This document shows positions 26,260 to 60,760 of a stretch of 64,000 nucleotides of DNA, piece after piece; within the stretch, counting starts at the first letter, position 1, and the number at the start of each line of letters is the position of its first letter. The translations under genes and the position numbers were made by a program. The stretch is from Polytrichum commune (lineage: Eukaryota > Streptophyta > Polytrichopsida > Polytrichales > Polytrichaceae): the NCBI GenBank assembly GCA_950295325.1, contig OX485803.1, forward strand, positions 16,990,001 through 17,054,000. Direction: 5' to 3'. Under the pieces are notes generated by a model. The model searched no databases and was not told the origin of the DNA. It worked only from the letters and a program-made list of their open reading frames with translations.

Positions 26260-27220
26260 AACAAACCAACAAACCAAAAAGTGTCTCAATCCCGAGTCAC
26301 CAAAATCTCACTTTTCAAACTATTCCTTCAACCTTAGAAAGTGTTGCTCAGGTCATTTGGAGACCACTTGACCACTTCAAATTCAATAAACCCTCAAGAG
26401 AACAAATGTTTGAAATCTATGAATTTAGTATATTAGGGCAAAAATAATAAAATCTACAATTTTTCAATTTTCTAGAGATACAAATCCACATCAAATTGAA
26501 CCTTTCCTCCCCCCAAAAAATAAAAGTCCAAAATCCCGACATTTAGTGTCTCGGATCTGAGATACAAATTTCTCGTTTTTTTAGGATTTATTCTAGAGCA
26601 TTTGGAAGTGTTATTGAGGTCATTTGGAGCCCGGTTGACCAAATTTTAATCAAGGTCTTTTTACAAAAAAACAAATGGACATATATTGAATTTTAGTGTC
26701 TCAAATCCAAAACACAAATTTCTTATTTTTTGATTTATTCTAGAACCGTTGGAAATGTTGTTGGGTCATTTGCAGCCCACTTGACAATGATTAATGTAGT
26801 CATTTCTATGGGAAGAAATGAAAATATCTTGAAATTTAGTGTGTTGGATGTGAAACACAAATTTCTCATTTTTTGAAATTAATATATCACCTTAAGAAGC
26901 GATTTTGGGGTTGTTTGCAACCCACTTGACCAAATTTAATTTAGTTGTTTCATGTGAGTATGAAATTCCAACACCTTGATATCTAGTGTTTGGGATTCAA
27001 GACAACAAAACAATGACCTTATAGGTTTTTTTGAAAACACCAAGAAGCATCGGTGGTTCATTGTTTAGATCAATTGGAAAACATCTTGGTAAACATAACA
27101 TCATGAAAAATGATTAAAATGCCCAAAATTGTAATATTTGTAGTCTTGTTATGCTAGAGGTTGCTTTGTTGTGACTTTAGTTTGCTTATTTGGAGACCAC
27201 TTGAACAAATTGTATTATAA
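26260..27220 (+). repeat. Degenerate tandem repeat, period about 143-150 bp, about six units
   Basis: A TTTAGTGTCTCGGATCTGAG-like block recurs at 26541, 26691, 26834 and 26981 (spacings 150, 143, 147). A GGTCATTTGGAGCCCACTTG-like block recurs at 26351, 26618, 26763, 26909 and about 27184, where the long spacings are about two units. Units have diverged heavily. Confidence 0.75.
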
Positions 27221-45381: not shown

Positions 45382-45618
45382 ATGAGTTCTAGGTATAATC
45401 CTCAGAGCTCCGTGGCCGTGCCACGTTCTCTGAGTGCCATCACGGCGCACCCTAGCCCCTTCTGTGACTGGTTGAAGCCCAGCCACCTGGGGCAGCCTTT
45501 GCCTGTCGCAATTCCGTACCTTGATACATGGTCTCATCGTCAACCGGCTGGCCATCATGACACTGGAAGCAGCAGCTCTTACGTCTCTCAACCTGAGTCA
45601 CCAACATCCGTCAATAGG
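45382..45618 (+). CDS. WIP gene, coding exon 1 (79 aa)
   Basis: The open frame starts at ATG 45382 and ends AGG|GTGAGT, a strong plant donor at 45619. It is Ser/Pro/His-rich and contains FCDWLKP, plausible for the variable WIP N-terminus. It joins exon 2 in phase 0 across a 1110-bp intron. An alternative is transcription starting later, with exon 2 as the first coding exon, but exon 2 has no in-frame ATG early enough to explain its conserved N-terminal half. Confidence 0.7.
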
Positions 45619-48600
45619 GTGAGTGATACTGCTCGGGGACACAATAATATCACTTCATCTTGGTGGTGACATGCCAGAAATGGTTACCAATGCCACTCGC
45701 GAGGCCAACCTTGTGAAAGATTCTAGTTCAAGCAGAAACTGTTACACCTTGTTCTCACTCTTGTTACCAAGCTTCCGTGATTCTGTCAAAAACGCCCCGA
45801 CTGATATTGACACTTCTGGTATCTCTCATGGAGCTGTTACTAGCAGTTGGCTCAGTCGTGTTAGACTTATCATGTTGCCGTTGTGATGCTTTCCACGCGG
45901 CCGCCCTTTGTTTCTGACTAGAGCTCCTGTCTGTTTGTTTCGATGATCGAATGATCGTTAGTGGTGGTTGCAGATACTTTAATGGTATGGAGAACACTTT
46001 CTCTGTACAGATGCTCATGAGTATAATCTTACAAATTTGTTGCTGACTCGCCAAATAGATCATGATATAGATGCAAAGAATGTAATGAAAAAATCCATCA
46101 TGTGCTGCCAAAGACAACATTAAAGAGACTTGCAGTGTTTGCCTAAAGGGTTCCTGATTGTTGTTGAGTATTTGGTCTTGTTGCTAGTTGCATGTTTTCG
46201 AACTTCTTTAACAAAATGTGGGTTCAATCGTGTTAAACAATCTTCAAGAAACATCTGAAGCAACTGCTGCCGGCCCGAGAGAGTCTCCTGCGGAGGGAGT
46301 GCATATAATCTATAAATGCTCGTGTTCGGAGCAGTTGGGCAAGTACCGAGTTGATTTTTGTGTGTTCTCCCTGTGCAGTACCGCTCTGTAGTAGAGCACC
46401 TGAAACAGATGCACAAAATGTAATGGAACACATCCATTATGTGCTCTCAAAGACAAAAGCAACGAGACTTGCAGTGTAGTTTGTTTGAAAGGGTCCTGAT
46501 TGTTGTGACGTATTTTCTCTTGTTGCTATTCCATGTTTTCGAACTTTGTTAAGAAATGTGGTTCCAATCGTGTAAATAGAGAGATCTCTGATACATCTGG
46601 AGAATTGCTCCAGCCCCGACAGAGGGAGTGCATATACATACATTAATGCTCATGTTTCGGAGTTGAATGTAGTTGGGGATATCCCCACAGCAGCTGAATG
46701 ATTTTTGAGTGTACTGTCTTCTGTGCAGTACCAATCTGTAGCCCAGCAACACCCTTACCACCCTCAACATCAACCGTCGCAACACCAATTCTACGAGCAG
46801 CCACCGGATCCTTACGACTGGCAACAGCAGCGACACACTGCAGTCTCCTGCGTGCAGCAAGCGCCCCAACAGAGGCGCCAGGTGCTACCATTCCTGAGCC
46901 TAAGTCCTCCAAGCTCCCACGAGGAGCTGCAGCCGGATACCGTCGTCATGCGCACAGCGATTCTGCTGCCTACGGAGGCGAGCAGCCAAGCGTCAGAGGA
47001 TTCATCTGATGGGAACGTCACAATCGCCCTGCACATTGGCCCCCCGTGCTCCTCCGATAGTACTCTGCGATCCTCGCAGACATCTCAGCTGCAAGACGGC
47101 GAACCCCGCAGTAATGTATATGACGCATTGAGTTTGGCGGAGAGGGAACGATTGCAACGAGGCCGCAGCCGTCTCCCTGAAGGCCAGTACTGGATCCCCA
47201 CCCCGGCACAGATTCTGGTCGGGCCTACCCAGTTTTCCTGTCCTGTGTGCAGCAAGACCTTCAACCGCTACAATAACATGCAGGTGGGTAGTTTACTGGC
47301 CCCAAATGCCCCACAACAATGTGATACCTTTGGTATCGTCATTCACTTATCATATGTTTGTTACCGCGACCGACCCATTTTGGTGGAACAAACTGCTGCA
47401 ATGCTTGGACTCAATGTCTTAATCAGCATTGACTACGAGAACCTGGAACAATGCGATGACCTGGGCGTCGTGATCGATCATATGCACATATTTGTAGACA
47501 ACTTTGTTATTTCCGGCCCATTCTGGTGGAAAAAAACTGTTGATGTAACGCTTGGTATCGGTATCATAATCTGCATCGACTATAAGAACCTGGAACAGTG
47601 TGATACCTTTGACGTTGTCATTGTTCATATGCACAGTTTTGCCTCTGATCCAGGTTTATTTACCTCTGATCCATTTTGGTCGAATTAAACTTTTGTGCTG
47701 CTTGGAATCAGTGTCTTAAAACTGCATTGACTATAAGGACTTGTGAATATGTGCAACAATGTGATGCTTTGGGCGTCGTCATTGATCATGTGCACATTTT
47801 CGCAGGCAGTTTTGGTGCCTCCGATCCCTTTTGGTGGAACAAACTGTTATACTGCTTGGAATCAGTGTCTTGAACTGCATTTCCTGTAAGAACCTGGAAC
47901 AATATGATGCCTCGGGGTCATGATTGATCATATGCTCATTTTCGCAGCCAAGTTTGGTACCTCCGATCCATTTTGGTGGAACAAATTGTTGATGGTAATG
48001 CTTTGACTCAGTGTCTTGACCTGCATTGACTATTAGAACCTGGAACTGTTGATGGTGAGACTCCTTGTCCGCAAAATATGTGAGTACTAGACTTTCGAAA
48101 AAATCGGTTGGTCGCCGCGCCTGCTCTGACAAGCATGAAGTTAATGAGCCTGGTCGACATCGGAACTCGTGGGAATTTGAGCTCCTCTCGTCTTAATTTC
48201 TTTCCGCCGCCCATCTATTTTGTAGCTGGCAGATAAGTTAGCGAAACAGTTACAGAAGCTGAGAACTTCCTGAGTTCCCGCCAGGTTTGATGCTTTAATT
48301 TGAAGTCTTGTCAGAGGTCGACCCCCTATATTCCTTCATATGTACACTTCATTTCTGTTAGCATTTTCCTAATGCAGTGCGATATATTCTTAAAGAGCAG
48401 AATCCTAGGGATGTATTTATCAACCTGGCATGGAACTAGCCAATCACCAAAATGTTTGACTGGCCTACAGTAATTTTGTTTGAATGAAGTACTGGAGGTC
48501 TGGAATCCATGAACAGTGTCATGAACCAAACTGAAAATCTAATTTAGTCTGGCATGAAAGTTGGTATGCCATGCTAATTAGAGCGGTCTTCATAAATCGT

Positions 48601-50031
48601 CGTGTAGCACCAAGTGCCATATGACAACCTCTCTAGTTGCCATTGCAAGACAATTTCTGTGGATTGATGATGAATAGTACGGCCCATACTAATTCAGATA
48701 TTTAGTGTAGTTTCTCGTACAAAACGAGTATCTTTTCCTTCAGAAGAGCAACACAAGGTACTGATAGTTGCTTCGCATTGTCGATAGTCTACCCGATCAT
48801 TCAGACGTGCAGAGCTGAAGACCATAGTGGTAAATTTTCCATTGAGCTCCATCATGTAGTTGATCATTGTGGACAATTGTCTTCCACACAAGTTTCTCCG
48901 ACCTTGATACTATTGAGGGGGATGGATTTCTGAGATTGATGAGTGTCATAAGGTCCTTACAGGTAACAGGATGCTGTAGACTGTGGCTTGGGTATAACTG
49001 TCCACCTATTGACGTCAATTCTCTGTTGGACTGTCAAGCTTCTTTAGATGAGATGGACATAGAGTCCACATTGCTCATTGTTTGATGAATCCCAATCTGT
49101 AATTGTGTAATGAGGTCTTTGTGTACTGGAACTCTTCAAACTCAAGAGGTTATTTGGAGAATGGATTTAAGATGACGAGTGACATAAGAAACTTACAGGA
49201 TGCTTTCAAACTGTAGATCGGGTATGATTCAATGACCTATTGACTTCAATTTTCTGTTGCACTGATGAGATGGACACTTGGTCTACATTGCTCATTAAAT
49301 CATGAATCCTAAAACTGTCGATCTGTAATGAGGTCTTTGTGCACTAGAACTCTTCAACCTGAAGACAATATTTGGAGGATGGATTTCTAACGTGATGGAT
49401 ATGGTAAGGAATTTACAGGATGCTGTCAGACTGTGGATTGGGTATGACAGAATGACCTATTTGACTTCTCCGGTGGACTGATGAGATGGACAGAGTCCAC
49501 ATTGCTCATCAATCTCAAAATTGTTCTTGTACAATTCACATATTATTGTTGCAGTATTAATGGAAACTGATGTGGATGATGCAGATGCATATGTGGGGCC
49601 ACGGATCTCAATATCGGAAGGGACCGGAATCGCTGCGGGGAACACAGCCCACAGCCATGCTGAGGCTACCGTGCTACTGCTGTGCACAAGGGTGCCGCAA
49701 CAATATCGAGCACCCAAGGTCGAAACCATTGAAAGATTTTAGGACGTTGCAGACACATTACAAGAGAAAGCACGGGATCAAGCCTTTCATGTGTAGAAAA
49801 TGTAGTAAGGCATTTGCAGTAAGGGGTGACTGGCGCACGCATGAGAAGAATTGTGGGAAGCTGTGGTTCTGCATTTGTGGCTCTGACTTTAAGCACAAGC
49901 GCTCTTTGAAGGACCACATCCGTGCTTTTGGGAATGGTCATGCGGCTGTGGGTATGGATTCGTGTGAAGACGAGGAGGATCAAGTGTCAGAAGACGAAGG
50001 GGATGATGATGTCTCCGGAGGATCGCAGTGA
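45382..50031 (+). CDS. WIP-family C2H2 zinc-finger transcription factor (three coding exons, 412 aa)
   Basis: Join 45382-45618, 46729-47283 and 49585-50031; both introns are GT-AG, phase 0. WIP proteins (TT1/NTT group) are plant nuclear transcription regulators with a conserved C-terminal block of four zinc fingers. Seen here: [10 protein letters not shown] and LPFLSLSP (EAR-like) motifs in exon 2, the family-defining [13 protein letters not shown] at residues 233-245, finger 1 (C250, C253, H266, H270), finger 2 (C296/C297, C301, H322, H327), finger 3 (C334, C337, H350, C354), finger 4 (C360, C362, H375, H383), then an acidic tail (about 389-412). The intron inside finger 1, after NNMQ, is the position usual for the family. 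The start at 45382 is the first ATG of the open frame and has A at -3; further upstream the frame has only a GTG. The N-terminal 79 residues are not conserved enough for me to check, so exon 1 is less certain than exons 2 and 3. The developmental role cannot be read from sequence. Confidence 0.9.
46064..46738 (+). repeat. Tandem duplication in WIP intron 1, two copies of about 350 bp
   Basis: Unit 1 runs from about 46064 to 46390 and unit 2 from about 46405 to 46738. Shared blocks, in order, are a GATGCANARAATGTAATG start, GAGACTTGCAGTGT, TCCTGATTGTTGT, GCATGTTTTCGAACTT-like, GGAGTGCATATA and finally CTGTGCAGTACC. The last block is the exon 2 splice acceptor, and its copy in unit 1 is at 46378. 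The exact unit edges are estimates. Confidence 0.85.
46729..47283 (+). CDS. WIP gene, coding exon 2 (185 aa; first half of finger 1)
   Basis: Exon 2 begins after TCTGTGCAG and ends AACATGCAG|GTGGGT. It encodes a Gln/His/Pro-rich stretch, [18 protein letters not shown] and [21 protein letters not shown], followed by FNRYNNMQ. The frame stays open 402 nt past the donor, so intron retention would add 134 residues before the stop at 47686-47688 and would drop fingers 2-4 and the histidines of finger 1. Confidence 0.92.
47305..48050 (+). repeat. Tandem array in WIP intron 2, about five copies of 146-153 bp
   Basis: The marker block around GACTATAAGAACCTGGAACAA recurs at 47431, 47578, 47729, about 47882 and 48028, giving spacings of 147, 151, 153 and 146. 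Each unit also carries a TTTTGGTGGAACAAACTG-like block and a GATCATATGCACAT-like block. The first two units are multiples of three and stay open in the exon 2 frame. Confidence 0.9.
48870..49530 (+). repeat. Second tandem array in WIP intron 2, three copies of about 220-240 bp
   Basis: ATGGATTT recurs at 48922, 49161 and 49379. Each copy is followed by a TTACAGGATGCT-like block, CTGTGGATTGGGTATGA, a GACTTCAATTTTCTGTTG-like block, GATGAGATGGACA and CCACATTGCTCAT. The array ends about 50 bp before exon 3 and is unrelated to the 147-bp array in the same intron. Confidence 0.85.
49585..50031 (+). CDS. WIP gene, coding exon 3 (148 aa; fingers 1b-4)
   Basis: Exon 3 starts [19 protein letters not shown] and ends with an Asp/Glu/Ser-rich tail and TGA at 50029-50031. 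The residues across the zinc fingers are those of the family. The acceptor (GATGATGCAG|ATG) has a poor pyrimidine tract. A better-looking TTGTTGCAG lies 30 nt upstream, at 49554, but using it would put an in-frame TAA immediately after the junction. Conservation therefore decides for 49585. Confidence 0.95.
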
Positions 50032-57387: not shown

Positions 57388-58342
57388 CACTACAAGAAAA
57401 AACGGTTCCGTTCCAACAAAGTTCCAACAGAATTCTGTTGATTCTACCTGTTGATTCGGAACTCTTGATTCGGAACAATTTTAACACATATCTCTTGATT
57501 GAGGCATTTGTTAAATGTCCAAGTTATACTAGTAAAAATGATATAGATTAGTGATTCCGCTCCTCACATCCCCGGCCTATACACCTACTACCAAGGACCA
57601 CCTTGCCTAGCCTAGGCTAAAGGACCTAGCCACCTACCTAACCTAGGCTAGGCCCAAGGGTGAAGGCCAAGGGTATCGATCCTTGAACCTCTTGGCTACC
57701 ACGAGGAGGCCTTAGCCACTAAGCCACCACTCATCACATGATGGAGTACGAGTATGTAAGACATTTGTATAAAGAGGCCGTAAAATTTATAAACTTTTGT
57801 AAAATTTATAATTACATAGATTACATAATTACACAATTACATAATTATAGTAATTACTGTAATTGTTTTTATTACTATAATTTCTGTAATTACTTTAATT
57901 AGTAATTTCTGTAATTACTTTAATTAATATTTTCTGTAATTAGTAATTATTGTAATTACTTTCATGAGTAAGTACAATAATTAGAGTAATTGCTAATTAG
58001 TAATTAAAGCTACTATAAATAGAACAAAATTACAATCATTCACAATTTACTATAATTGTAAAATTAAGTAATTAAAATAATTAAATATTGCAAATTAATC
58101 AAACTATTTAATTATTGTAAATTATAGGAATCATAGTAATTGATTACTTTAACATAATTAGTGTTATTTAAAAATTAAAATACAATAATTAAAATTCCTC
58201 TGCTGAAATCAACAGATAAATGTTCCCTCTGTTGATTTGTGTCGCACAATGGATCCATTTCAACATTGTTTTTATCAAATATGTTGAAATCAACAGAAAT
58301 TAGTTGATTTTATGTTGATTTGGACTGCGATTTCTTGTAGTG
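57388..58342. mobile_element. Non-autonomous CACTA (CMC) element, 955 bp
   Basis: It starts CACTACAAGAAA and ends TTTCTTGTAGTG, a perfect 12-bp terminal inverted repeat, with CAC target duplications (57385-57387, 58343-58345). CTGTTGATT-type subterminal motifs lie in both ends, as in CACTA elements. The interior is AT-rich with TAATTAC-like repetition and a nested SINE; no transposase is encoded. Confidence 0.92.
57560..57739 (-). mobile_element. tRNA-derived SINE, family S2, nested in the CACTA element
   Basis: On the minus strand the sequence near 57718-57729 reads TGGCTTAGTGGC (A box), and the complement of 57671-57682 reads GGATCGATACCC (B box, one mismatch to consensus). A near-perfect direct repeat, CTCCTCACAT / CTCATCACAT, lies at 57560-57569 and 57730-57739. 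It is distinct from SINE family S1. Confidence 0.7.
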
Positions 58343-58349
58343 CACACAC

Positions 58350-59850
58350 ACTTGTATCTTATAAATGTGGATTTTTACATGAAATATATGAACACTATCC
58401 TTGAAAATATGAAGGGGGATTGACAAAAAATTGTATTTATTTTATTAATTTGTATTAATTTGATTATCTACAATTGTTTACTAATGTAGAAATTCACCTC
58501 CTCTAAAAATTCCACCCCGTTTTGCAGATCTGCAACAACGAACGATTTATCAAATTCCATAATTCTAATATTTTTGATGATTTTTATATGTGTCTTTGAT
58601 GTTATCTTCTTTCATCCATATTTTGATCTTTTTACAAAAGCCGTAGTTTCATTATAAATTCTACATGCCTTGTTCATAGTTGCAACAACTTCACGCTGCA
58701 GACAAAAGTACATTATGAAATGTTAACTTTCAATAAATATAAAAACACATATAGAAATAAAACACATGGGTTAGATCTTATAAGAATATCTTGCAAAGGC
58801 GTCAATTGTTAAAATATACCAAATCAATTTTATTTTATTATTTTCACTCTTTTTGTAATGCCCAATTGAAATTAGTGATTTGAAATTTTCAAATGATAAA
58901 AGACCAAAATGGCGAATGTGATAAAATTTGTGAATAAGATTGGTCTTCACATAGTCACTTTCAAGAGACTTAGAATGAAATGTATGAAAATATTGGTCAA
59001 AGTGATAAAAATCAAGCAAAACAACAAATAAATATGTAATTTATGCATGTTCATATCATGTATCGCTTTAAAGAGGATTCCAACATTTGTAGATGTGTTC
59101 AAACATATCCAATCAACTTTTGGATCTCATTATAGATCATTTACATAAAAACGTGTTATATATTGTCGTCGTACAGTCACCGGATGATTTCTTTCCCAAA
59201 CAAAATATTTTGTTTCACACATTGACATAGTCATCATCAACATTAAGTTTGTCTTTAAATAAATATTAACCGAACAACAATGAATACTCCAAGTTGATTT
59301 TATTTTAACATTCAATTCAAATTGATTGATAATTTTATCATAAATTAATATATAGAGGACCATGTCGCTTTTTCTTTAGTCATTACTAAATTTATTATCT
59401 AAGAATTACATGTCAATCTCAAGTACATGTCAAACAACAACAAATGATATCAACCGAAATATAGGAATAGAAATCCTAGACTTTCATAATGGTTTAATGC
59501 ACAAGGTGCTAATCATGAAATTAAAATATGTTTTTTTGTTCATTTTGTATGTAATTGATAATCTTCTCAACCTCCTTCGATGATTCAACATTCGCATCAT
59601 CATCATCACGAAAATTGGCGTTACTATACTGAATTTTCAAAATAATAAAAAGGATTAATGAAAATATTAAGATTCATTCATTAAATGGTAATGAAAAAAA
59701 ATCAATAACATAATTATGTAATATTTCGAATATTACAAAATAAAATATAAATTATTTCAAAATCATAAGAGCTAAGTGTCATAAAAATCAATAGTCATAA
59801 AAATTTAAATGTAGAAAAATTGATTATGAAAGAATTTATGTATAGCAAGA
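58350..59850. other. No gene recognised
   Basis: Very AT-rich; minus-strand frames at 58771-59019 and 59130-59363 carry no motif I recognise. Confidence 0.35.
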
Positions 59851-60760
59851 TTCAAGTATGCAAATATTCATATAAGCAAGAAATATAATTTGCAACATTT
59901 CACGTATACAAATATGTAAGAATCAAGTAGTTGAAAATCAAATATCCTAAAATGCAAGAATTTCAAGCATGCAAAAAATTATGTGTATAAGAATAAAATA
60001 TGCAAAAAATTCAAATTTGTAAGATTCAAGTATGCAAAAATTATTTTATGCTACAATGAAGATTTCAAATATGCAAGAATTCAATGATACTATAATCAAA
60101 TAGGTAAAATTTAAATAACCCAAAACCCAAGAATGAAAGAATTTTGTGAATGAAGTATGCGAGAATGAAGTAAGTAAGACTTGGTAACTTAGAATCCAAA
60201 AATGCAAGAATTTTGAGTATGCAAAATTTCAAATATCTAAGAATTCAAACATGCATGAATCAAGTAAGTATATAATAATCAAATAAGTAAAAAATAAGTA
60301 ATCTAAAATTGAAGGATAAAATGATTTCAAATATGTAAGTGTGCATCAATTTCATATATACAAGAATGCAAAAATTACAAGTATGCAAGTATACAAGAAT
60401 ATAAGAATTTGTAGTATACAAGTATATAATAATGAAGTATGTAAGAATTAGAAATCTAAATATATAAATTCTAAGTCTTCCATACTTAAAATATGACATA
60501 TTTCAATAGATGAGGATTGAAATATATATATCAATCAAGTATGCAAAAAATTCAGTAAACAAAAATTCAAATTTGCAAGTTTCAAGGAAACATGAATCAA
60601 TGTTTCAAAAATCAAGTATTCTAGAATGGAGTATGTAAGAATTCAACTATGCAATATTATTAAGTTTGCAATACTTAAGCAGATGAAAATTAAATAATAT
60701 AATTATTTCAAGTATACAAAAATAAAGTATGTAAGATATTCATACACACAATTTGTTTTT
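59850..60760 (+). repeat. Cryptic AT-rich repeat built from short AAGTATGCAA-type words
   Basis: TCAAGTATGCAA, TATGCAAGAAT, ATGTAAGAAT and CAAATATG variants recur many times over about 900 bp with loose spacing near 20 nt. Divergence is too high for a clean unit length. Confidence 0.6.

Follow-up and report, generated by a model that had tools for sequence, protein, structure and literature searches.

The closest published case that we found to the locus described here is the potato RdRp gene where, as set out in the available text of its report (PMC4974935), a tandem duplication gave rise to a new exon and a new intron, which are spliced according to RNA reads and use an activated GTAAG donor. 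The potato copies differ at ten nucleotides. Like the potato duplication, the one analyzed here in a WIP-type zinc-finger gene takes in the 3′ part of an intron together with the 5′ part of the exon that follows, with branch site, pyrimidine tract and acceptor. Unlike the potato copies, those of the WIP-type gene are far more diverged, and no donor of native grade follows the copied acceptor in 46379-46689.

Novel introns created by tandem duplication in Drosophila, as presented in the accessible portion of PMC2891723, share with the WIP-type gene that new splice-site choices arise, and NMD is possibly involved there. However, what is duplicated in those cases is a proto-splice site within a coding exon, whereas the WIP-type duplication lies at an intron/exon border and no new intron is predicted. 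Similarly, the NMD shelter model of intron gain covers new introns (PMC2809761, in the part available), whereas the WIP-type case is an extra acceptor within an existing intron. With regard to the gene family, the genome of Marchantia polymorpha encodes one WIP protein only, MpWIP, which appears to hold for the genome under study too, and the strings ‘intron’ and ‘splic’ are absent from the accessible text of that report (PMC5399667). Our literature searches showed no description of acceptor duplication in any WIP gene, which is a weak negative since they barely combined WIP genes with splicing.

The WIP-type gene

The window, meaning the whole stretch of 64 kb that was analyzed, corresponds to C1:16990001-17054000 of a 408-Mb genome in 64 contigs. 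It contains a C2H2 zinc-finger gene with three coding exons and two introns on the + strand, and the spliced translation gives 412 aa and one stop. Translation places coding exon 1 at 45382..45618 (79 codons), ending at the donor AGG/GTGAGT (the slash marks the splice border), which scores 0.96 and lies within the range of the 42 native donors of the splice-site model described below. Coding exon 2 (46729..47283, 185 codons, donor CAG/GTGGGT) encodes YWIP as well as the beginning of the first zinc finger, and coding exon 3 (49585..50031, 148 aa and the stop) encodes the remaining zinc fingers.

WIP-type factors have, after a WIP motif, four C-terminal zinc fingers. The YWIP motif was identified by direct reading of the translation, and the Pfam matches were zf-C2H2, zf-C2H2_STOP2_3rd and C2CH-3rd_BIRD-IDD. 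The name WIP is used provisionally. When exon 3 was used as a query against its own genome at E up to 1e-10 (11 candidates scored), it returned itself and one 40% match on C5, the frame of which we take to resemble another C2H2 protein, perhaps STOP1-like. No other WIP-type gene was found in the genome at this threshold, and this one looks like a single-copy gene. No relatives of exon 3 were found in viral_contigs, and none of 10 pattern matches in genome_contigs was confirmed.

An old tandem duplication across the intron 1/exon 2 border

Intron 1 contains a 338-bp unit in head-to-tail copies that crosses the intron 1/exon 2 border. The upstream copy (46063..46400, + strand) consists of the intron 3′ end and ~20 nt of exon 2-like sequence, and the downstream copy (46401..46748, + strand, end approximate) spans the true acceptor at 46728/46729 and continues into exon 2. 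A duplication had been proposed at 46064..46738 by the sequence-only reading; it is present there, but it starts at 46063 and runs ~20 nt into exon 2, beyond 46738. Because the unit crosses the border, its duplication took along the acceptor and ~20 nt of exon 2, such that the upstream unit holds a branch-like TTGAT, a U-rich tract, the CAG and an exon start. The same reading had recognized the acceptor as duplicated, and CTGTGCAG/TACC indeed stands at both sites, after 46378 (hereafter the decoy) and after 46728 (the true site).

The best alignment of the copies pairs 46063-46398 with 46401-46748. Two gap schemes gave 263 matches, 47 mismatches and 50 gap columns, and 258, 61 and 46, respectively, while at a third gap cost 315 sites were aligned, of which 22 differ by a transition and 26 by a transversion (K2P 0.171). 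The local alignment score of the copies was 139, compared with a maximum of 16 among 200 pairs of base-shuffled sequences, indicating that their similarity is far above chance. Identity over aligned sites was ~81-85%, varying with the gap scheme, and this degree of divergence (K2P 0.17) argues that the duplication is old and no assembly error.

A search of the 408-Mb genome, which omits very common words, found for the DNA of 46064-46760 only its own place, suggesting a local duplication with no evident dispersed element; a dispersed repeat as the source of the unit was rejected on this basis. A third, older copy within 45619-46062 was also rejected, with local alignments to the two units at chance (p 0.53 and 0.36, 500 randomized sequences). 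A global alignment of 45690-46028 gave p 0.044 and, being one of several tries, was given no weight. No structured RNA was matched in Rfam at gathering scores within the 64-kb window.

Predicted product of splicing at the decoy

The reading that we favour as likely is neutral intron growth, in which an old local tandem duplication left a decoy acceptor that is little used and whose transcripts are cleared by NMD. The alternative of regulated unproductive splicing, which we regard as unlikely, holds that the choice of acceptor sets the amount of full-length protein while NMD removes the decoy transcripts.

The decoy reading frame (46379..46423, + strand) follows the acceptor at 46378/46379 and runs for 14 codons to a TAA at 46421-46423. 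Translation of exon 1 joined to this frame yields 93 aa without zinc fingers, in agreement with the earlier proposal of an in-frame join, a stop after 14 codons and a finger-less product of about this length. The in-frame start is automatic, since the copied exon start retains the phase. The position of the stop is likewise ordinary and at chance level: across the junctions of exon 1 with 64 intron-1 AGs, the decoy among them, the median distance to a stop was 12 codons and 30/64 reached at least 14. Use of the decoy would lengthen exon 2 by 350 nt on its upstream side. The early stop precedes the next exon junction, at the end of exon 2, by 860 nt, and NMD of the transcript is therefore expected, as regulated unproductive splicing would also require.

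Strength of the copied acceptor

To score splice sites, a model was derived from the same genome using tubulin loci, with 16 gene regions subjected to spliced alignment to tubulin queries. The model set comprised 42 introns of 15 genes, out of 52 introns; the 10 introns of L048 were left out (alignment score 641, compared with 1984-2346 in the other genes), and the near-identical introns of L042 and L043 were both kept, although these are not independent of each other.

When three exon bases were included in the model, the decoy scored 1.66 vs 4.26 for the true site, ranking eighth of 65 AGs, and 22/836 other AGs reached its score. Because the same exon starts recur among tubulin paralogues and skew the three exon bases, intron-only models of the final 20, 15 and 10 bases were adopted; they were chosen after this result had been seen, and they raised the decoy's score. 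At 20 bases the decoy scored 6.23 and the true site 6.36 (native median 4.71), with 34/42 native acceptors scoring no higher than the decoy. The scores were 5.41 vs 6.47 at 15 bases and 4.45 vs 6.22 at 10 bases. Non-acceptor intronic AGs reached the decoy score in 0/836, 2/836 and 7/836 cases at 20, 15 and 10 bases, respectively. With rough Arabidopsis weights, the decoy scored 2.41 and the true site 2.39, and the two ranked second and third of 68 AGs. These models make the decoy a plausible acceptor that matches the true site or falls below it in strength, and one that the spliceosome can probably recognize.

The near-equality of the two sites on 20 intron bases and on the Arabidopsis weights speaks for regulated unproductive splicing, whereas the weaker decoy scores with shorter windows or exon bases speak against it. 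Also in its favour, the decoy is nearer to the exon 1 donor than the true acceptor, and the A of its branch-like TTGAT precedes it by 24 nt; a search for YTNAY in the region 60 to 15 nt before the true acceptor gave no match.

Strong internal AGs are, however, common. At least one internal AG equalled or exceeded the intron's own acceptor in 15, 13 and 13 of 42 introns at 20, 15 and 10 bases, and in 11, 8 and 9 of the 18 introns that are 500 nt or longer; the model with exon bases gave 9/42 and 7/18, respectively. Intron 1 itself contains a second acceptor-like site outside the duplication (45954..45973, + strand), the AG of which, at 45973, scores about the same as the true site. This frequency weighs against regulated unproductive splicing.

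Conservation was measured between the two copies of the unit. A 32-column acceptor window of the copy alignment contains 25 matches, and 155/329 windows are equal or better, suggesting that over this length the acceptor region is ordinary, no better preserved than other parts of the repeat and without the excess that regulation might leave. For a 21-column acceptor core, picked after the fact, there are 19 matches including an unbroken 12-nt core, placing it among the best 19 of 340 windows, which points to a mild excess over the rest. Nothing in these comparisons shows that selection retains the decoy or that it is used, and there is no sign so far of its use as a switch.

Donors downstream of the decoy

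The duplication had been proposed to act possibly as a splice switch or poison exon. In the cassette sense, a poison exon has an acceptor and a donor bounding a premature stop, and the sequence after the decoy does not support this: 0/24 GTs in 46379-46689 reach the weakest of the 42 native donors. The best of them scored -0.55 and the weakest native donor -0.28, with the native donors scored by a model that includes them (not left-one-out), which favours the native scores. Given this lack of a native-grade donor, use of the decoy would be alternative 3′ splice-site choice leading to a premature stop, rather than inclusion of a cassette poison exon. An unproductive site of this kind has a usable upstream acceptor, an early stop and NMD geometry, and all three were found here, the first by the intron-base score and at lower strength in the model with exon bases.

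The same result bears on the formation of a new exon and intron of the potato RdRp type, in which a small exon would be included, bounded by the decoy acceptor and by a new donor within the downstream copy. We consider this very improbable, even though the duplicated segment is of the type seen in the available description of the potato gene (PMC4974935). Two GTs, at 46388 and 46391, would give exons of 9 or 12 nt with the frame kept (415 or 416 aa), but these are the only ones of the 24 that give a protein >200 aa, neither is among the six best-scoring donors, and none of the 24 is at native level. Exons of 9 or 12 nt would be unusual.

Local duplications elsewhere in the gene and genome

Intron 2 of the WIP-type gene contains two further tandem arrays on the + strand, at 47356..48053 (unit ~145-150 bp) and at 48922..49512 (unit ~240 bp), such that its two introns hold three tandem duplications, the one in intron 1 included. 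Elsewhere in the window, Tandem Repeats Finder reported a repeat at 26530-26996 (unit ~143-150 bp, 2.3 copies), and AT-rich tandem arrays with units like TAATTACAG and ATGCAAAAAATTA... occur at 57808-58124 and 59799-60570.

Among the tubulin introns, 4/42 contain a local direct duplication of at least 60 bp, two of them being the near-identical L042 and L043. This alpha-tubulin intron (L042 3746-4082 and L043 3466-3802, gene orientation) carries a tandem duplication of its 3′ end, in which the last bases of the upstream copy are a CAG that aligns with the true acceptor. The paralogue L049 aligns closely over the downstream unit only. Because both WIP-type intron 1 and this unrelated alpha-tubulin intron show a 3′-end duplication, intron growth by local tandem duplication, sometimes with the acceptor copied, has occurred at least twice in the genome.

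Separately, the alpha-tubulin intron L044 2431-3292 (gene orientation) consists mostly of diverged direct repeats, with offsets of ~171, 301 and 475 bp in three listed pieces. The alpha-tubulin genes L004 and L005 (C6, ~227 kb apart on opposite strands) encode nearly the same protein and have one intron each, unlike eight other aligned alpha-tubulin genes with three or four introns.

Discussion

The duplication, its borders, the decoy frame with its stop, and the acceptor scores were observed directly. For neutral intron growth, the following sequence of events is envisaged. An old local 338-bp tandem duplication over the intron 1/exon 2 border would have placed a 3′ splice region inside intron 1, and the copied acceptor would probably be recognizable by the spliceosome. 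The decoy is most likely little used, an assumption made because the true acceptor at least equals it in strength and full-length protein has to be produced from the gene. NMD should remove transcripts spliced at the decoy and would in this way shield the decoy from selection. A point against neutrality is that the decoy has not decayed despite the age of the duplication, and the mild excess of matches in the 21-column core counts on the same side.

Regulated unproductive splicing gains some appeal from the finding of one WIP-type gene (E up to 1e-10), as its dose could matter. That the duplicated acceptor of this only WIP-type gene found has become a regulated splice switch, setting dose via NMD, nevertheless seems quite unlikely from the sequence comparisons made here. 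A stable 93-aa decoy protein that acts in its own right, for instance by competing with the full protein, is barely credible, since although its frame is open it matches no Pfam family at E 0.001, is without fingers, and its transcript has NMD geometry.

The locus presents two similar acceptors, 350 nt apart and derived from one duplication, in an apparently single-copy developmental regulator, and it offers a clean natural example for studying the spliceosome's choice of exon. With the alpha-tubulin intron as a second case, it seems that decoy acceptors may arise repeatedly in this genome by tandem duplication of intron ends, a pattern that could be surveyed.
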